The translations under genes and the position numbers were made by a program. Shown one piece after another: positions 38,191 through 54,878 of a DNA stretch of 64,000 nt. Source of the stretch: Streptomyces sp. NRRL F-5135 (GTDB lineage: Bacteria; Actinomycetota; Actinomycetes; Streptomycetales; Streptomycetaceae); contig NZ_JOHR01000013.1 in NCBI RefSeq assembly GCF_000719775.1, positions 248,001-312,000 on the forward strand. The letters are read 5' to 3'. The notes under the pieces were generated by a model. That model saw nothing but the letters and a program-made list of their open reading frames with translations. It was not told the DNA's origin and did no database searches. Numbering within the stretch: position 1 is the first letter of the stretch; every line of letters begins with the position of its first letter.

Positions 38191-38275
38191 GGAGGATTCG
38201 CCTAGAGGCCTAGGGCGCACGCTTGGAAAGCGTGTTGGGGGCAACCCCTCACGAGTTCGAATCTCGTATCCTCCG
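38191..38275 (+). tRNA. tRNA-Ser(GGA)
   Basis: 85 nt, class II with a long variable arm (TGTTGGGGGCAACCCCTCA). Acceptor GGAGGAT/ATCCTCC, anticodon loop TTGGAAA (GGA), T-loop TTCGAAT, discriminator G. CCA is not encoded. The 3' 53 nt form the attachment site of the AICE that follows; the gene is intact. Confidence 0.96.
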
Positions 38276-38276
38276 C
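38223..38276 (+). other. attL: left attachment repeat of the AICE
   Basis: A 54-bp block from the anticodon loop to one base past the tRNA-Ser end is repeated exactly at 54825-54878. Bases flanking the two copies differ (GC before and A after on the left; AG before and C after on the right), which fixes the length. Confidence 0.95.
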
Positions 38277-38340: not shown

Positions 38341-39627
38341 TCAGCCGCCGTTGTCCTGGTTTTTGTCCACAGGGGACGTTTCCGAGGGGCCCCAGATGGC
38401 TTCGGCGATCTTCCGGGCGACGTCCTTGAGCATGGCGTCCGGCACATGCAGGTACCTCGCTCGCATGCTGTCGGACGTGCCCGGCTCCCACCCCATGATC
38501 TGATCAATGACGCGCGCCGGGACGCCGAGCAGCATGAGCACGGTGGCGGCCGTGTGCCGGGCATCGTGCAACCGGGCGTTCCGAACCCCCGCGTCGTCCA
38601 GCAGCCGCTTCCAGTCGTGATAGTCGGTGTTCGGGCTCAGAGGGCCGCCCAGCGGCTTGGTGAACACGTAGTCCGACTCCACCCACAGGTCGCCGGCCGT
38701 CTTGCGCTCCCGCTTCTGTGTCTCGGCATGGGCCCGGAGCATCGAGACCAGCGGTCCGGGCAAGGGCACGGCCCGCCGGCCCGCCCGGGACTTGGTGTTC
38801 TTGGTCTCGCGCCGAACCTGCACCTTGTCCGGGCAGTACCCCGCCTTCCGGCCACAGGGTGAGGCTTCCGGGCATCCGTGCTCGTACCTGGGGCGCAGAC
38901 GGTTCCGGCGCAGCTTCAGGTACTCGTTGGCAAGGTCGACATCAGACCAGCGCAGTCCGAGCGTCTCGCCCTGTCGCAGCCCGAGCGCCAGGGCCAGCAT
39001 CCAACGAGCACTGTTCCGGCGCTTGTTGGCTTCGAGCAACAAGCGTTGAACCTCTTCTACGGAGTAGGGCTCTACCTCTGATTCGTCCTCTTCGATCCGC
39101 GGCGGCTTCGCCAGTGCAGCGGCGTTCTTCGCCGCGTAGCCGCGTCGCACCGCCTCACCCAGCGCGGTTCGAGCGGTGCGGTGGGCCTGGTGAGCCGTGC
39201 CCGCCTTGCGCTCCCCGTTCGCCTGCATACGGCGATACAGGCTCTCCAGGTGCTCGGGCTGCAAGCGGTCAAGGCGGTGCTTGCCGACACCGGGCACGAG
39301 GTGCACGCGAACGGCGACCTCGTACCCGTCGTACGTGTTCTCGCTGACAGTCGGCTTGGCGATGTTCTCAACCCAGTGCTGAAGCCACTTCTCAACCGTC
39401 CACGGCTTGCCGGGCTGACTCGCCGAACCCGCGTCCCGCTGCTTCTCAAGGCGCCGAACTTCGTCAACGAGTTCATCGCGTGTCGGGCGCGTCACGTGCC
39501 GGCGGTACGGCTCCCCGTTGTCCTTGTAGCCCATCGGTACACGGGCGTGCCAACGGCCGTCAGCCCCGAAGTAGACGGCCGATTCGCCGTTGGCGCGGCG
39601 GGTGCCCTTCTTCTTTTTCTCTGCCAC
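38341..39627 (-). CDS. int: Site-specific tyrosine recombinase (integrase)
   Basis: The protein has 428 residues. N-terminal arm-binding region (WHARVPMGYKDNGEPYRR), SAM-like core-binding domain (about 75-175), catalytic domain with Arg218 (GLRQGETLGLRW), His354/Arg357 (LHDARHTAATVL), the later W380 and nucleophile Tyr392 (RARYLHVPDAML). A Cys-containing insert (GCPEASPCGRKAGYC) is typical of AICE integrases. GTG 39627 chosen for its AGGAG spacing; the frame is open 83 codons further but without homology. It ends 65 bp from attL. Confidence 0.95.
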   Translation of the reverse strand: MAEKKKKGTRRANGESAVYFGADGRWHARVPMGYKDNGEPYRRHVTRPTRDELVDEVRRLEKQRDAGSASQPGKPWTVEKWLQHWVENIAKPTVSENTYDGYEVAVRVHLVPGVGKHRLDRLQPEHLESLYRRMQANGERKAGTAHQAHRTARTALGEAVRRGYAAKNAAALAKPPRIEEDESEVEPYSVEEVQRLLLEANKRRNSARWMLALALGLRQGETLGLRWSDVDLANEYLKLRRNRLRPRYEHGCPEASPCGRKAGYCPDKVQVRRETKNTKSRAGRRAVPLPGPLVSMLRAHAETQKRERKTAGDLWVESDYVFTKPLGGPLSPNTDYHDWKRLLDDAGVRNARLHDARHTAATVLMLLGVPARVIDQIMGWEPGTSDSMRARYLHVPDAMLKDVARKIAEAIWGPSETSPVDKNQDNGG

Positions 39628-39712: not shown

Positions 39713-39940
39713 TCAAGCGGCTCGTTTGGCCGCGCGCCGGCGTGCGACGTATTCGGCGGGCGCGTCTGCGGGGACGCGTCGGAGACGGCCCACGTCGATG
39801 GACTCCAGTTCTCCGGTGCGGATGAGCGCGAAGCATGTGGTCCGGCCGATTCGGAGTCGGCGGGCGGCTTCTTCAACCGTGAGGAGAACCAGGGTCGGGT
39901 CTTCGGCAGTGGCGGCGGGGGTGGTGGTGTGTTCGTCCAC
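39713..39940 (-). CDS. xis: Excisionase / MerR-like DNA-binding protein
   Basis: The protein has 75 residues. A winged-HTH of the excisionase family: LVLLTVEEAARRLRIGRTTC followed by FALIRTGELESIDVGRLRRV, and a basic C terminus (ARRRAAKRAA). GTG 39940 with AGGAG 7 nt before it is preferred to ATG 39967, which lacks a site. Located just upstream of int and co-directed, it would bend att DNA to allow excision. Confidence 0.88.
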   Translation of the reverse strand: MDEHTTTPAATAEDPTLVLLTVEEAARRLRIGRTTCFALIRTGELESIDVGRLRRVPADAPAEYVARRRAAKRAA

Positions 39941-39979
39941 GGCTCGCTCCTGTGAGGCTGAGTTCATGGGCAGGTGCCG

Positions 39980-40252
39980 CCGCACAAACCGCAATATCCG
40001 CAGAAAACCCGGGCGGGGTTGCTGACCTGCGGTGATGTGGCGCGGTGGTGCGGCGGGTGGTGCTCCGCAGAAACCCGCGATATTCCGCAAAAATCAGGGG
40101 CGCCCGGTAGCCCGCCGTGGCGGGCGGCGCGCTCGCTTTTTTGCGGAATATCGCGGGATTGTGCGGAGCACCACCCGCCCGGGATGGGGCTGGGCTCCGC
40201 CGCTGGTCAGCGGGGTGTTCAGGCTTTTCTGCGGATTTTGCGGTTTATGCGG
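39980..40252. repeat. Nested inverted-repeat/iteron array (candidate AICE replication origin or Xis/Rep site)
   Basis: Outer arms 39980-40007 and 40225-40252 are 28 bp, inverted, 26/28 identical. Inner arms 40053-40093 and 40138-40178 are 41 bp, inverted, 39/41 identical. The 44-bp centre holds a third hairpin (GCCCGCC GT GGCGGGC). Outer and inner arms share one unit, roughly CCGCANAAACCCGCRATATY followed by CCGCARAAA, so there are four copies, two rightward then two leftward. It is AT-richer than the rest of the element and lies between xis and the replication genes. Confidence 0.9.
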
Positions 40253-40275
40253 GAGAGGTTGAGGGCTCGGGCGGG

Positions 40276-41838
40276 TTACCGGCCGCCGTGCCGTAGGGCG
40301 GGGTGAGCCTGTAGCCGGGGCGCGGGGGGCCGTCCGCGCTTGCCGGTGCGCTCGGGCTGGTAGGACCGCAGGTATCCGTGGTCTTCCAGCAGCGCGAGGG
40401 CCGGTTCCAGGTCCGCGACGGTGGGCACCTCGCTGCGGGACAGGACAGTGAACACGTCCCGCCGGCTGACGTCCTCCCACCCGTTGTCCCGGAACGCTTC
40501 CAGGACGCTGCGGGCCCGGGAGAGGACCGGGTCCGCGCCCATGACGTCGAACACGGCAACAGCGTGGGCGGTGTAGTACTCGCCCAGCTCGATGGCCGCT
40601 TCCATGGTGGCGCCGGTGACCGGGTGGGCGTAGCCGTTGCCGCCATGCTCGGCGAGGTGGAGCAGCGCGGCCATGCGGGCGGTCGCACCGGCGAGCTTCC
40701 CGGCCCAGTTCGAGATGTGCCCCAGCTTCCCGCCACGCGATTTGAGCTGCGGTTCGACTTGTTCCTGATACCTGATCAGAGCCTTGTCGGCATCCGGGCT
40801 GAGCTGGATGACGGCCGGGTCCGTCCACTCAGCGAGGGACAGGGTCAGGTCGATGACCCGCGCGGTGTAGGTGGCGGCCGTCTGCTCGGGGACGGGGTCG
40901 GTGATGATCTCGCGTTCACCGACCGTGGACACCGGCAGGGAGTACAGGAAGCGGGCCAGCAGTCCGCGCCCCTCGAACCCCTTCACCTTCCCGATGTCCC
41001 TCAGTACGTCCGGCTGTACGGCCAGACCGATGCTGAGGGCAGGGGCCTCGATGTATTCGCGGCGTGTCTGCCGGTTGACCCTCAGCCGGTCCCCCGCATG
41101 CCCCTTGAGGAAGACCTCCATGTTGGGGGCACCGGAGTAGCGGCCGGCGATGATGTCGAAGATGCCGCCCTCAGCGCTCATCACCGACAGCCGGCCGCCC
41201 TGCTCGGCCATGAGCGAGGTGACCGTCTCAGGGGTGGAGTCATCGGCCAGCAGCACCGGTTCGACGGGCACGGTGAGCGTGTCGGCGGTCTGCGCGAGAC
41301 CAACGGCGGTCGCCACCATCTCATCCCGCTTGTCCCCGTCGGCGGACGCGGCCCTGGCGGCGGCCTTGTCCGCCGCTTCCTTGGCCAGCCGCGCCGTCAG
41401 CTCCGCTTCCACGATCACGGGCTTCATGACCGCCTGGAGTTGCTTCTCCGCCTCGTAGAGGGGGTTGGTGAGCAGTGCGAAGACGGCGGACTTGCGGTTG
41501 GCGGGCGGGAGCGCGACCACGGTGTAGAGGTTGGTGGGCTCGCGCCAGTTCCCGCGCACGTGGACCACGGACCGGCCGCCGGCCGCCGTGGCGAGCACGG
41601 ACAAGGCGATGGATCCGGCAAGGTCCACGGGGGTCTGCGTCTCTTCCGCGACGGCCGCCACGAAGTCCCCCAGCCACGCGGGGAAGACGTGCGCGGGGAA
41701 CGACGGACGCTCACGACGGCCGGTGAGAGGAATAGGGTCCTCCCACACGTCCGGGGCCGTGTCGCCTTCACCGTGCGGTTCTTCCAGGGTGGGCAGTCCG
41801 GCCCACAGGTCGGGACTGCCCACAGGCTGTGGAGTCAT
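40276..41838 (-). CDS. DUF3987-type replication protein of the AICE
   Basis: The protein has 520 residues. It has the layout of DUF3987/YfjI-like proteins: FPAWLGDFVAAVAEETQTPV, LAGSIALSVLATAAGGRSVV, a phosphate-loop region ALPPANRKSAVF in place of a classic Walker A, EGGIFDIIAGRYSG, and a C-terminal winged-helix segment. In mobile elements such proteins act with a primase-polymerase as helicase-like initiators. ATG 41838 (GGGAGGG upstream) overlaps the previous gene's stop. The iteron array begins 24 bp after its stop codon. Confidence 0.75.
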   Translation of the reverse strand: MTPQPVGSPDLWAGLPTLEEPHGEGDTAPDVWEDPIPLTGRRERPSFPAHVFPAWLGDFVAAVAEETQTPVDLAGSIALSVLATAAGGRSVVHVRGNWREPTNLYTVVALPPANRKSAVFALLTNPLYEAEKQLQAVMKPVIVEAELTARLAKEAADKAAARAASADGDKRDEMVATAVGLAQTADTLTVPVEPVLLADDSTPETVTSLMAEQGGRLSVMSAEGGIFDIIAGRYSGAPNMEVFLKGHAGDRLRVNRQTRREYIEAPALSIGLAVQPDVLRDIGKVKGFEGRGLLARFLYSLPVSTVGEREIITDPVPEQTAATYTARVIDLTLSLAEWTDPAVIQLSPDADKALIRYQEQVEPQLKSRGGKLGHISNWAGKLAGATARMAALLHLAEHGGNGYAHPVTGATMEAAIELGEYYTAHAVAVFDVMGADPVLSRARSVLEAFRDNGWEDVSRRDVFTVLSRSEVPTVADLEPALALLEDHGYLRSYQPERTGKRGRPPAPRLQAHPALRHGGR

Positions 41839-42167
41839 GAGGCCGCCCTCCCTTCGGTGGTGGCGTGGTGCGGGCAGTGCCCGGTGCGGGCGCGTGCGGA
41901 GAGCTGCCGTACGGCGGTCTTGCCGCGTGCGCGTTCGTGGTGGCCGCACGCACAGAGCCAGTCGGCGACGGGGATCTGTCCCCGGTCCAGTCCCTGGATG
42001 TGGAGGCCGGGGCGGATGCCGGTCACGGTGACCGTGTGCGGGTCAGGGCGAACAGATGAAAGGACGGCCTTACGGCCGACGTTCCTTCGTTCGCCTACGG
42101 CCGCCCGGGGCGGGCCCTGTACGGCGTTCTGCGGGCCGTTCGCGGGATTTCGGGATGGTTTGTTCAT
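41835..42167 (-). CDS. Small AICE protein with Cys/His cluster
   Basis: The protein has 110 residues: an N/P/R-rich half followed by VADWLCACGHHERARGKTAV and GHCPHHA, whose Cys and His residues could hold a zinc ion. ATG overlaps the primase-polymerase stop (ATGA) and its own stop overlaps the DUF3987 start, so it belongs to the replication operon. Similar short proteins occur at this position in other AICEs; role unknown. Confidence 0.6.
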   Translation of the reverse strand: MNKPSRNPANGPQNAVQGPPRAAVGERRNVGRKAVLSSVRPDPHTVTVTGIRPGLHIQGLDRGQIPVADWLCACGHHERARGKTAVRQLSARARTGHCPHHATTEGRAAS

Positions 42168-43051
42168 GCCGCGCGCTCCCCGCCCGTATGGAGGCCGTTG
42201 GTGACGGCGCGGCGTGCGTAGGGTTCGGGGACTCCGACGGAGACAGCGGCGGTGATGATCTGTTCGCCGATGGTGTCGAGTCCGCACGGGCCGGGGCACT
42301 GCGTGTGCTGGCCGGCCAGGAACCGGGCGACGCCGAACGCCTGCGATCCCGCCCCGGATTCGGTGCGGGCGCGTACGAGGGTGATGCCGCGCTCCAGGCC
42401 GGTGCGGACGTACCGTTCGGTGTGGCGGCACCCGGTGGCGCCCGACCGGTCCCAGGTGACGCGTTGTGGGAGGGAAGAGACCAACCCGCCCCGTTCCCGG
42501 CGGGGGGTGGCCTCTTCCCTCCCGATCAGCGCACGGACGGCCGCCGGCAGGTCGACCATGCGGCCGGTGCCGGGTCCGAGCCACCGGGCGTACTGCATGC
42601 GGGATTTGATGTCGACACCGGGCCGGACGTCGTTGGCCGATGGCATGGCGCCCCGGTAGATCCAGTGCTCTCCGCGCGTCGTGGTCACGGTGCGGGTGGC
42701 GGGCAGGGCGGTGCGGGCCCATGCGACGGCCGCCGCGTTGTCCAGGTCGACCACGGTCAGGCCGGCGCCACCGGGGTGGTAGGCGACGGACCCGGCCTGC
42801 CTCCACGCACGCACCCAGGGCCGGGAGGTGAGTACGGCCGGATCGGTGGTGGCGGCGGCCCATGCGTGGCAGGGGGCCGGGCACCGGCAGGGACCCGCGT
42901 CGAGCATGTTCGGCCGTCCCCCGCAGGCGACGGCCGCGCACGACCGGCAGTTGCCGACGGGCAGCTTCCCCGCCCGCAGTGGCAGGACCGGTACCCCAGC
43001 GGACGCCAGCGCCAGAGCGGTAGCCAGGAACGGACTGTCGACGCCGGTCAC
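42164..43051 (-). CDS. Bifunctional DNA primase/polymerase (prim-pol)
   Basis: The protein has 295 residues. Prim-pol N-terminal marks: FLATALALASAGVPVLPLRA, a Cys-rich zinc segment (CRSCAAVACGG, CRCPAPCHAW), the catalytic acidic pair in LTVVDLDNAAAV, and VTTTRGEHWIYRG. It would start replication of the excised circle. GTG overlaps the methyltransferase stop. C-terminal helical part lacks helicase motifs, supplied presumably by the DUF3987 protein. Confidence 0.82.
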   Translation of the reverse strand: MTGVDSPFLATALALASAGVPVLPLRAGKLPVGNCRSCAAVACGGRPNMLDAGPCRCPAPCHAWAAATTDPAVLTSRPWVRAWRQAGSVAYHPGGAGLTVVDLDNAAAVAWARTALPATRTVTTTRGEHWIYRGAMPSANDVRPGVDIKSRMQYARWLGPGTGRMVDLPAAVRALIGREEATPRRERGGLVSSLPQRVTWDRSGATGCRHTERYVRTGLERGITLVRARTESGAGSQAFGVARFLAGQHTQCPGPCGLDTIGEQIITAAVSVGVPEPYARRAVTNGLHTGGERAA

Positions 43052-43773
43052 GCGGCCACCCCCAGCCGGGACGTGAGGAACGCACGGCCGATGAACTCGG
43101 TGTAGGCGGGCGGGATGGCTTCGGTCAGTTCCTCGCGCACGTCGGTCCATGTGATGCCCATGGCTTCCTGGAGTTCCGGAACGGTGGGCTTGCCGCCGCC
43201 ATTGCCGTACGCGGCGACGTAGGGGCCGTCGTAGAACCGGCCGTGCCGGTAGCCGCGTACGCGGCCCCGGTGCGGAACGTGCGCCGGCTGCTCGATGGCC
43301 CATCCGCTCAACTCGAAGTTCCGGTGACGGATCACTCCCAGCGAGAACATCTCTCCGCACAGGGTCAGGTCCTTGCGGATCTCCGCGCGGCCGTTGGGCT
43401 GCTCGATGACGTACGGCAGGCCGGTCTTGTCGAGCAGTTCGCGGGTGGGCGCGACGAGGTCGACGTGTGTGCGGCCCCAGCCCTGGGAGGCGTTGGTGCC
43501 CACGGTCAGCGCGCATCCGTGTTGGCACGGCGGGGACGCGTGGACGAACGAGTACCGGCGGATCCGGCCGGACGCGATCAGGTCCGCGAGGTAGGCCAGG
43601 GCGTCGCCCTGGTGGTAGGGGAAGGGGTAGCGGGGCCGGTCGGCGGTGTCGCAGCCGTAGACCGCGAAACCGGCCGCCTCGTATCCCTTTCCGGCGCCAC
43701 CGGAGCACGAGTACAGGTCCAGTAAACGCGGCCGGCCGTCGGGCACTCGCCGGATGAGGGTCGGTTGGGTCAT
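43048..43773 (-). CDS. C5-cytosine methyltransferase-like protein
   Basis: The protein has 241 residues. AdoMet-binding motif I LLDLYSCSGGAGKGYEAAGF and catalytic motif IV HASPPCQHG with the nucleophile Cys, then motif VI-like VIEQPNGRAEI (in place of ENV). It is short and lacks an evident target-recognition domain, so its specificity is unclear. It is translationally coupled to the primase-polymerase and no restriction enzyme gene is near. It may modify the element's own origin or protect it in new hosts. ATG 43773 with GGAG. Confidence 0.75.
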   Translation of the reverse strand: MTQPTLIRRVPDGRPRLLDLYSCSGGAGKGYEAAGFAVYGCDTADRPRYPFPYHQGDALAYLADLIASGRIRRYSFVHASPPCQHGCALTVGTNASQGWGRTHVDLVAPTRELLDKTGLPYVIEQPNGRAEIRKDLTLCGEMFSLGVIRHRNFELSGWAIEQPAHVPHRGRVRGYRHGRFYDGPYVAAYGNGGGKPTVPELQEAMGITWTDVREELTEAIPPAYTEFIGRAFLTSRLGVAA

Positions 43774-45029: not shown

Positions 45030-47135
45030 TCAGTCCTCGGGCGGGTTGTCGGGGGTGTGGCGGTGGTAGACGTAGCGGGTCTTGGTGCCCGTTCCGATAC
45101 GCACGGCGGTGCCGTCCTCGGCCCATGCCTTGAGCCATCCGACGACGGTCTGACGGTTGGTGCCGTGTTCGTCGGCGAGAGCGCGGGCGATCGCGGATGC
45201 GCCGGTTCCCTCGGGCCCGGCGGCGAGGAGCAGGGCGAGCGCGGCTTGCCGGGCGGCGTTGTCCTCGTTGCCGTCCCGCAGCGCGGAGAGGTTCAGACCG
45301 TGCTCCCGGCGCTCCACCGACGGCTCGCCAGCGGGTGCGGCCGGTTCGGGCGCGGTTTCGAACTGCGCGTCGATCTGCTCACGGAACTTGCGGGCCAGCG
45401 CGTCGGCGTTGGCCGCGTCCGCGCTGTCGCGGAGTGCGGAGAGGTTGAGTCCTCCCGGCCGCGCGGCCGTCCCGGTGGTGGGCCGCTCGTTGGTTGCGGT
45501 GTCGTTGTCGCGCATCCATGCGGTGCGGGTGGTGTCCCAGCGTCGTGCGTAGTCCGCGCCGGCCGCCTTCGCGGACGAGGCATCGAGGCGGGGATGGAGC
45601 GGGCTGGTGGCGGTGACGATGTCCGCGATCTGGTGGGGCTTGATCCGCCAGGACTTGAACAGGCCCGGTGACGCTTCCGGGGTGCCGATGAAGCCTGCCC
45701 CCTTGTAGGGGGCTTGGTCGATCCGGAGTCCGCGTGCTCCGGGGAACACCTTGGACAGGTCCATGCCTTCGACTTCTCCGCCGGTCAGGCAGACGCGGGC
45801 TTTGCCCTCCCGGCGGATCATCAGGTTGCCCAGGACCGATCCGGTGGCACCGAGGGCGGTCAGGACGGTGCGGATGCCCATGGCCCGCAGCAGCCGGGTG
45901 ACTTCCAGGATCTTCTCGGCGAGCTTGCGCATGGCACGGTCGTTGCTGGCCAGGATCTCGGCACCCTCATCGATCACAATCATGATCTGTGGGATCTGCG
46001 CGGAGACGGGCAGCAGATCGGTGTTCGCGCTGGTCATGAGGTCCTGGTAGGCCACCTTGCGGTGCTTGCCGATCCGCAAAGCGGTTTCCAGCATGAGCAT
46101 CGCTTCGGTGTAGGAGGCGGCGACCCAGTCGACCCCGGGCCGCGTCTCCGACTGCGGGTTGCCGGACGGATCGAGTGCGGGGCGGACCCAGGGCAGGCCG
46201 GCCGATCCGGCGTTGAGGTCGATCACCCACGTGAGCACGTCGATGCTGCGGGCGAATCCGGCGAGAACCGTGTGGACGAAGTTCGTCTTGCCGGACCCGG
46301 TGGGGCCGATGACCAGCCCGCACTGTTCCCGCAGGAACACGGTCGCGTCGCGGCCGTCCGCACGGACGCCCCAGGGGATCCCGCCCATGATGGACAGGGG
46401 CGCGTAGTCGGCGGGGTACCCGATCTCGTCGGCCAGGACGTTGACGGTGGAGACGTCGATCAGGACGCGGCCCTGGTGGATGCCAGGGCCGGCGGCGGCG
46501 GTGCAGCCGTGCGGCAGACGTGCGTCGGCGGACAGGCCGGCCGCGTGCTTGGCGATCTGGTCGTAGGTGGCGGCGCCGGGCAGTTCGGCGTCGATGGTGA
46601 AGCCGGAGCCGGTGGGCCACTTCTCGATCGCGAGAACGGTGACCGTGATCCCGCAGACCCGCGCGATCCGGTCCACCCACTCGACGGCCAGCGTGCGCCG
46701 CTCGGCGGAGAGTTCCGCGGCCACCTGCCGGTCCGCCAGCGCGATGAGTTCCAGCTCCCGCGCGTCCTCATACAGGCTGGTGGAGCGGGCGGTGGTGCCG
46801 ATGCCGACACCGAGGACGGCGAGCGAGCCGATCGCGGACCAGGAAAGCGGGCCGGTGGTGATGGCCCACGTGGTCCACCCGGCACCGAGCAGCCAGGACG
46901 ATGCCCGCAGGGCGACGGTGCGGGCGGAGAGGCGTTCGCGCAGGGTGGAGATGGTGTGTCCGATGGCGCCAGCCGCGCCGGCGGCCAGGGCCCATGCGGG
47001 GGGCATGCCGGTGGCGGCGCCGGTGGTGGCGAGCGCGAACGCGCCGGTGGTGGCGGACAGGGCGCCGGTCACGGGTCCGTGACCGGCGGCCCAGTCCCAC
47101 ACCGGCCCTGTGGTGGGGGTGTCGGTGGTGGCCAT
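45030..47135 (-). CDS. traB: TraB-type FtsK/SpoIIIE DNA translocase
   Basis: The protein has 701 residues. N-terminal part has two to four membrane helices (about 20-115). Walker A GPTGSGKT (277-284), Walker B QIMIVIDEGAEI, further FtsK motifs (VIDLNAGSAGLPW, LTALGATGSVLGNLMIRREG). The C-terminal 60 residues are a winged helix (ALADEHGTNRQTVVGWLKAW), the part that reads TRS repeats in related pumps. A duplicated GLNLSALRD segment (about 570 and 620) lies before it. It is the single protein needed to move double-stranded DNA in this element class. Confidence 0.93.
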   Translation of the reverse strand: MATTDTPTTGPVWDWAAGHGPVTGALSATTGAFALATTGAATGMPPAWALAAGAAGAIGHTISTLRERLSARTVALRASSWLLGAGWTTWAITTGPLSWSAIGSLAVLGVGIGTTARSTSLYEDARELELIALADRQVAAELSAERRTLAVEWVDRIARVCGITVTVLAIEKWPTGSGFTIDAELPGAATYDQIAKHAAGLSADARLPHGCTAAAGPGIHQGRVLIDVSTVNVLADEIGYPADYAPLSIMGGIPWGVRADGRDATVFLREQCGLVIGPTGSGKTNFVHTVLAGFARSIDVLTWVIDLNAGSAGLPWVRPALDPSGNPQSETRPGVDWVAASYTEAMLMLETALRIGKHRKVAYQDLMTSANTDLLPVSAQIPQIMIVIDEGAEILASNDRAMRKLAEKILEVTRLLRAMGIRTVLTALGATGSVLGNLMIRREGKARVCLTGGEVEGMDLSKVFPGARGLRIDQAPYKGAGFIGTPEASPGLFKSWRIKPHQIADIVTATSPLHPRLDASSAKAAGADYARRWDTTRTAWMRDNDTATNERPTTGTAARPGGLNLSALRDSADAANADALARKFREQIDAQFETAPEPAAPAGEPSVERREHGLNLSALRDGNEDNAARQAALALLLAAGPEGTGASAIARALADEHGTNRQTVVGWLKAWAEDGTAVRIGTGTKTRYVYHRHTPDNPPED

Positions 47136-54824: not shown

Positions 54825-54878
54825 TTGGAAAGCGTGTTGGGGGCAACCCCTCACGAGTTCGAATCTCGTATCCTCCGC
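54825..54878 (+). other. attR: right attachment repeat of the AICE
   Basis: Exact 54-bp copy of 38223-38276 (3' part of tRNA-Ser(GGA)). No tRNA 5' half precedes it, so it is not a functional tRNA gene. It also serves as the left att of the decayed element that follows. Confidence 0.95.

Follow-up and report, generated by a model that had tools for sequence, protein, structure and literature searches.

A mirrored array of 9-bp units behind a DUF3987 gene, the probable replication origin of a Streptomyces integrative element

The question raised by this locus is what a palindromic region beside the replication genes of an integrative element does, and which protein of the element reads it. The region (39980-40252) lies in a stretch of 64,000 nucleotides from Streptomyces sp. 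NRRL F-5135 (contig NZ_JOHR01000013.1; "the window" refers to this whole stretch), within a 16.7-kb integrative element bounded by 54-nt exact repeats of a tRNA-Ser 3' end. Read leftward, the genes run prim-pol (bifunctional primase/polymerase), a small protein, DUF3987, a 308-bp gap, xis and a tyrosine integrase, and the region occupies the gap; an earlier sequence-only reading had likewise placed it between xis and the DUF3987/prim-pol genes. The tRNA attachment (att) repeats, tyrosine integrase and xis are hallmarks of actinomycete integrative and conjugative elements (AICEs). We found that the region is a real and conserved array of short mirrored sites, which from the comparison of related sequences is best read as an iteron origin; its geometry is unusual, and among close kin a specificity code seems to apply.

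Layout and conservation of the array

The inverted arms described by the sequence-only reading were recovered at their places. The outer arms (39980-40010 and 40222-40252) are 31 nt long and 90% complementary, with a best stretch of 28 nt and 2 mismatches, while the inner arms (40052-40093 and 40138-40179) comprise 42 nt that are 95% complementary (2 mismatches), 44 nt apart. They exceed chance, since the best inverted-repeat score is 36 and the maximum among 300 dinucleotide shuffles is 13. The 30-bp unit in four copies and the triple nested palindrome proposed earlier gave way to another description, in which the 9-bp unit CCGCANAAA occurs ten times as ten mirrored sites, 3+2 followed by 2+3: three units head-to-tail at 9-bp steps, two units 20 bp apart, and then the mirror image. 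A further mirrored motif, CTGACCTGCG, which the earlier description lacked, is placed in each half between the outer and inner arms. The parts of the array are as follows.

39980..40006, + strand: outer arm, three tandem 9-bp units (39980, 39989, 39998), by unit positions
40022..40031, + strand: second conserved motif CTGACCTGCG, exact match
40065..40093, + strand: inner arm, two 9-bp units 20 bp apart (40065, 40085), by unit positions
40094..40137, no strand: GC-rich core between the inner arms, by inverted-repeat arms
40138..40166, - strand: mirrored inner arm, two 9-bp units (40138, 40158), by unit positions
40201..40210, - strand: mirrored second motif CTGACCTGCG, 1 mismatch, by motif match
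40226..40252, - strand: mirrored outer arm, three tandem 9-bp units (40226, 40235, 40244), by unit positions

The unit at 39989 differs from CCGCANAAA by 2 mismatches. Nine units were found at no more than 1 mismatch, compared to a mean of 0.60 and a maximum of 4 in 1000 shuffles, and other 300-bp stretches of the window hold at most 2. In the 8.02-Mb host genome the outer-triple pattern occurs with zero mismatches only in the two outer arms; at 3 mismatches it has six further places, and a backwards control has six in all. A plasmid search with the array DNA gave no match.

A scan for DUF3987 yielded a main set of 67 loci, 63 of them in Streptomyces, and the DNA behind DUF3987 was read in 65 after L097 and L105, where the match ends inside the gene, had been dropped. 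With a unit score of at least 6 taken as array-bearing, all or part of the array was present in 61 of these 65 loci (among them L062 and L091, each with only one half seen), and 55 of the 61 have the complete four-arm layout. The remaining four are L052, which is truncated, L099, which has a half array with another unit, and the Actinomadura loci L103 and L104, which have none. A wider set, comprising further loci, the window and its copy, contained 91 loci with units, of which 84 could be parsed into four arms (63 non-redundant) and seven could not (L020, L043, L062, L070, L091, L098, and L107). The distance between inner units is 20 or 21 in 84 of the 91 arrays, these being the only values that the parser accepted. 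The motif CTGACCTGCG is present at no more than 2 mismatches on the left side of 60 and the right side of 61 of the 63 non-redundant arrays, compared to 4.4% of shuffled left segments. From the innermost outer unit to the inner arm there are 56-59 or 65-70 bp; outer distances from the first parse may be off by one 9-bp unit and were recounted later. Core lengths fall into sets of 21, 32-33, 44-45, 53-58, 67-68, and 89-90, about 11 bp apart, with a best period near 11.5 bp rather than 10.5 among related rows. Such steps of one helical turn are consistent with a looped protein complex, although the relatedness of the rows and a best period of about 11.5 bp limit this reading.

The unit differs by lineage, being CCGCANAAA in class A, CCACAGAAA in class B and TGACAGAAC in class C, while CTGACCTGCG is nearly constant across the three classes. 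More distant loci carry other units, namely GTCAGCA in L138-L140, GTTGACA and GGTGACA in L181 and L182, and GGGACAGAA in a half array on a Tsukamurella plasmid; CTGACCTGCG is visible also in L182 and the Tsukamurella locus, and likewise in L110. A circular plasmid record of 18,451 bp has a matching gene order and a class-C array, and resembles an element of this kind in its free form.

In L182, the first 450 bp behind DUF3987 consist of three tandem near-copies of a block with TGTCACC units and a TTGACCTGCGGAAACA-like stretch, which is a different multiplication of the same array parts.

The array and the winged helix of DUF3987

Because the integrase, xis, tRNA gene and prim-pol beside the array all vary, the comparison indicates that the array follows DUF3987 rather than any of these. 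Among the 60 main-set loci with at least 2 kb behind DUF3987, the integrase is below 50% identity or undetected in 30, and a window-type xis is undetected in 26, with all classes counted together. When the long downstream open reading frame (ORF) was checked in ten such loci, a phage-integrase domain was above the Pfam cut-off in four, below it in four and absent in two. Within class A (n = 48), identity to the integrase of the window is at least 85% in 6 loci, 50-84% in 16 and below 50% in 7, and the integrase is undetected in 19. In nine of 16 loci scanned, the tRNA gene beside the integrase, inferred from its position to be the att site, was Ser (5 loci), Cys (2), Tyr (1) or Gly (1). A window-type prim-pol is undetected in 30 of 61 loci; L076, L078, and L085, three of the loci where it is undetected, have a DnaB N-terminal domain fused to DUF3987, L096 is without the fusion, and homologs of 649-660 aa belong with this DnaB N-terminal-DUF3987 branch.

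In a predicted model, the DUF3987 protein has an MCM (minichromosome maintenance)-like AAA+ region (residues ~50-428) with the MCM AAA+ fold, followed by a C-terminal winged helix (437-512) with an RGRPP wing. Sequence searches gave DUF3987 as the only Pfam hit and, among PDB sequences, no MCM at E values up to 10. Over residues 1-400 the window protein shares 89-98% identity with that of L063, from residue 440 on 56-65%, and their array classes differ; L063 and L024 are 66-79% identical in the N-terminal part and 85-100% thereafter, and share their class. Furthermore, among 35 proteins whose N-terminus resembles that of the window protein, the 27 positions that are perfectly class-diagnostic all fall within residues 429-520. 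The classes require 10 changes on a tree of residues 29-400, for which the minimum possible is 3, whereas a tree of the winged helix, although built from a short alignment, needs 5 where the minimum possible is 5. These sequence comparisons show that the array unit follows the C-terminal winged helix of DUF3987.

In 77 of 77 distinct proteins residue 464 is enough to tell the classes apart, a count from the same data in which the residue was picked. The count leaves out L012 (the window copy), L020 and L062 (sequence gap) and includes two class labels set by hand after the pattern was noticed, class C for L040, whose array is weak, and class A for L052, whose array is truncated. In a later test on 25 fresh stretches, all 16 at 50% identity or more fitted (R464 with class C in 15, V464 with class B in 1), the R464 relatives being mostly one winged-helix clade and hence not independent trials. 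L175 (67% identity, A464) fits class A, and L181 and L182 (42-44% identity) combine R464 with TGACA-containing units, as in class C. As far as the alignments indicate, residue 464 is a class marker among close kin only.

Function of the array

The array is probably the replication origin of this integrative conjugative element, judging from ten short repeats of iteron type beside the proposed initiator gene DUF3987 and from their arrangement in two mirrored sets directly downstream of what would be a helicase gene. Of the two roles offered by the sequence-only reading, an origin melted by the prim-pol/DUF3987 pair is the one that comparison supports best, with DUF3987 as the likely reader. The winged helices of several DUF3987 subunits would bind the units as double-stranded DNA, helix 459-465 tuning to the variable 5' half (CCG, CCA or TGA) and the RGRPP wing contacting the A-rich 3' half that all classes share. 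Two MCM-like rings would be placed face to face across the core by the mirrored sets, ATP-driven melting would open the strands after ring placement, and the neighboring prim-pol would start DNA synthesis both ways after excision, with some other primase in its place in the DnaB_N-fusion lineage. The little-changing CTGACCTGCG pair may be read by a partner common to the lineages, and binding just upstream of xis could additionally tune xis-int expression. We tentatively speculate, with considerable doubt, that winged helix and mirrored array form a swappable cassette of a bacterial DUF3987 origin code, where very few residues (464 foremost) would set the unit among close kin, recombination would swap the cassette to escape incompatibility, and the array would seat a head-to-head pair of sequence-loaded MCM-like rings within a looped complex whose distances are kept to whole turns of ~11 bp. 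If true, this arrangement would be a counterpart, programmed by sequence, of the MCM double hexamer. For one DUF3987 branch, the proposed origin would also suggest a role and a DNA target, both likely, and a readable candidate for what sets specificity. Among Streptomyces integrative conjugative elements it would provide one class with a defined candidate origin, make co-resident elements sharing an origin type predictable, and offer a bacterial model for the placement of an MCM-like helicase by DNA sequence.

Several observations weigh against this interpretation. An AT-rich unwinding region was not found in the array: the core averages 77% GC (0.77 over 63 arrays), and the AT-richest 40 bp of the window array has 50% GC. 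In Staphylococcus aureus pathogenicity islands (SaPIs) the iterons flank an AT-rich stretch, whereas the core here is GC-rich. In 10 of the 65 loci, where the arms are imperfect, an ungapped inverted-repeat finder saw none that reached 14, and only half an array was seen in L091, L099, and L110, so that half may be sufficient or these loci may be decaying. DUF3987 genes at 51-54% identity are without the array in L103, L104 and L176-L179 (S, T or N at residue 464), and therefore the protein can do without it. Nine stretches at 35-47% identity miss the residue-464 rule, six being arrayless (L135-L137 and L141-L143) and three having another unit; five of them have A or T464 without a class-A array (none in L135-L137, GTCAGCA in L138 and L140), and L143 has R464 and no array. 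Finally, the winged-helix coding sequence adjoins the array, so that linked inheritance alone could give their match.

By eye, a small helix-turn-helix-like ORF directly follows the array-free DUF3987 gene in L103, L104 and L176-L179.

Instead of an origin, the array might be an operator by which DUF3987 or another element protein controls xis-int transcription and links replication state to excision. Its end lies, by inspection, about 40 bp ahead of the likely xis start, and mirrored, spaced sites with distance steps of ~11 bp resemble a looping repressor complex. However, a scan limited to sigma-70-like promoters found none in 39850-40400 (shuffles 0.1), ten sites across 273 bp are large for an operator, and the downstream genes vary, as the integrase counts illustrate, while the array stays; we regard this role as improbable, if still worth keeping in mind. 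The chance is slim indeed that Xis or integrase binds the array and couples excision to replication, the other role in the sequence-only reading. Xis proteins do bind short repeats, and the array adjoins xis, but it lies ~1.7 kb from the att repeat, and one unit class occurs with differing or undetected integrases, as in the class A loci below 50% or undetected. Nor does the array sequence follow the xis type, window-type xis being undetected in 26 of 60 loci and the class B locus L063 having a xis 74% like that of the window. We rejected this candidate, as array and unit persist while integrase, xis and tRNA gene (Ser, Cys, Tyr or Gly) vary, and the unit changes with the winged helix. Least credible to us is a partition or incompatibility site, or a locus of transfer (clt) bound by an FtsK-like protein, with a purely positional link to DUF3987. 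Streptomyces clt loci are short direct repeats, such as the nine 9-bp CCGCACA[C/G][C/G] of pJV1 in the excerpts of PMC3583192, which resemble the unit here; against this, the unit switches with the DUF3987 winged helix, and the clt of pWTY27 is at traA according to the same excerpts, whereas ~5 kb separate the array from the FtsK-like gene here.

The palindrome could also act as a single-strand hairpin, be it a single-strand origin, an RNA hairpin or a terminator, which we consider very unlikely. The predicted fold of the array is strong (z -12.45 for single-strand DNA, and about -12 for DNA and RNA alike), and arms slightly prefer their own partners, with inner arms scoring 0.802 against 0.784 and outer arms 0.780 against 0.763 for shuffled partners (each value reached in 2 of 2000 shuffles). 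Outer arms within a locus score 0.816 in class A and 0.796 in class C, compared to 0.762 and 0.765 for left arms between loci. This excess may come from lineage structure together with one-unit register shifts of the parser. In class B, by contrast, left outer arms are 0.93 alike between loci and only 0.67 like their own right arm, and therefore the sites are kept and the pairing is not. The core, which the sequence-only reading had taken for a hairpin, is indistinguishable from composition expectation (z -0.74, with 5 of 62 arrays under -2). Bases that match outside the inner units are peculiar to the array of the window (mean flank identity 0.25-0.49 in relatives), and the sole terminator-like match is on the + strand, against gene direction (1 found, shuffles 0.5). 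A hairpin as the main role was rejected on the divergence of class B arms with persisting sites and on a core folding no better than its composition.

Known systems and the rest of the element

Origins of related design are described in the excerpts of PMC7581432 for SaPI Rep and for Cch2 of the staphylococcal cassette chromosome mec (SCCmec), both helicase-initiators whose C-terminal domain binds iterons just downstream of their own gene. SCCmec pattern 2 (CCPol-MP-Cch2) shares the order primase/polymerase, small protein, helicase, iterons, recombinase, and Cch2 is an oligomeric helicase whose isolated C-terminal domain binds the downstream repeats; by description, SaPI Rep is similarly an initiator helicase with its origin directly downstream of rep. 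In contrast, the SCCmec module has, according to these excerpts, a polymerase of family A and a 23-bp direct repeat region that holds three 5-nt iterons. The window element combines a Prim-Pol of archaeo-eukaryotic primase type (PF09250) with a DUF3987 helicase, and its ten 9-bp units are mirrored and accompanied by a second motif.

The Streptomyces plasmid pWTY27, as excerpted from PMC3583192, encodes a prim-pol and a RepA of 522 aa, and its 300-bp non-coding region carries three inverted repeats together with five copies each of GTGGGAAC and TTCCCAC, on opposite strands. RepA binds and footprints on this region, all three components are needed for replication in S. lividans, and replication is bidirectional according to its authors (PMC3583192); from the map coordinates we read the region as lying on the 3' side of repA. 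Its repeat unit is not that of the window, and its authors suggest recognition of a folded stem-loop (PMC3583192), whereas our comparison favors double-strand sites, so that a kind of palindrome taken there for a stem-loop is read here as mirrored protein sites. As a tandem pair, the pWTY27 unit occurred in 21 of 392 Streptomyces genomes, and none of 23 loci had a 5+5 mirrored array or a DUF3987 gene. The published repA primer gave weak matches only, in 7 of 392 genomes and without DUF3987, and another primer gave none in viral contigs; RepA could not be shown to be DUF3987, a further point against the proposed origin. In L184 (31% identity), the first 35 bp behind DUF3987 have three GTGGGAC ~10 bp apart, recalling GTGGGAAC.

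Among AICEs, the SLP1 RepPP/Prim-Pol module (SCO4617-SCO4618) has, by description, a Prim-Pol gene followed by an uncharacterised replication gene, and the excerpts of PMC3218068 name no origin for such modules. DUF3987 (YfjI) ATPases were earlier predicted to be mobile-element helicases (excerpts of PMC5862659). In open-licence literature we found no tested function of DUF3987 and no origin of the window type. The sequence-only claim that no AICE origin of this geometry is described hence needs care: the initiator family is not so described in the literature searched, and an iteron origin is not categorically new, given the 5+5 opposite-strand repeats of pWTY27 and the similar SaPI and SCCmec origins, as far as the cited excerpts describe them.

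The remaining features of the element are listed below.

38223..38276, + strand: att repeat, tRNA-Ser 3' end, 54 nt exact
38341..39627, - strand: tyrosine integrase (PF00589, E 2.9e-20)
39713..39967, - strand: xis (HTH_17/excise family)
40276..41838, - strand: DUF3987 (YfjI family) protein, 520 aa, proposed initiator-helicase (PF13148)
41835..42164, - strand: small protein between prim-pol and DUF3987 (by translation; PHROG 34544, function unknown there)
42164..43048, - strand: prim-pol, bifunctional primase/polymerase (PF09250, E 2.2e-10, above the curated cut-off)
54825..54878, + strand: second att repeat, 54 nt exact

By inspection, the likelier xis start is the GTG at 39940, preceded by AGGAG. 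A candidate FtsK/SpoIIIE-type transfer protein at 45030-47135 has a PF01580 match of E 6e-4, which falls short of the curated cut-off. The ORF at 43048-43770 (- strand) looks by eye like a DNA methyltransferase, gave no Pfam or NCBIfam match, and is present or absent in relatives. ARAGORN called a tRNA-Val at 41683-41772 (+ strand), antisense within the DUF3987 gene; since the equivalent position was called Ala, Gly or Val tRNA in 5 of 16 scanned relatives, this call is most likely a false positive from conserved coding sequence.
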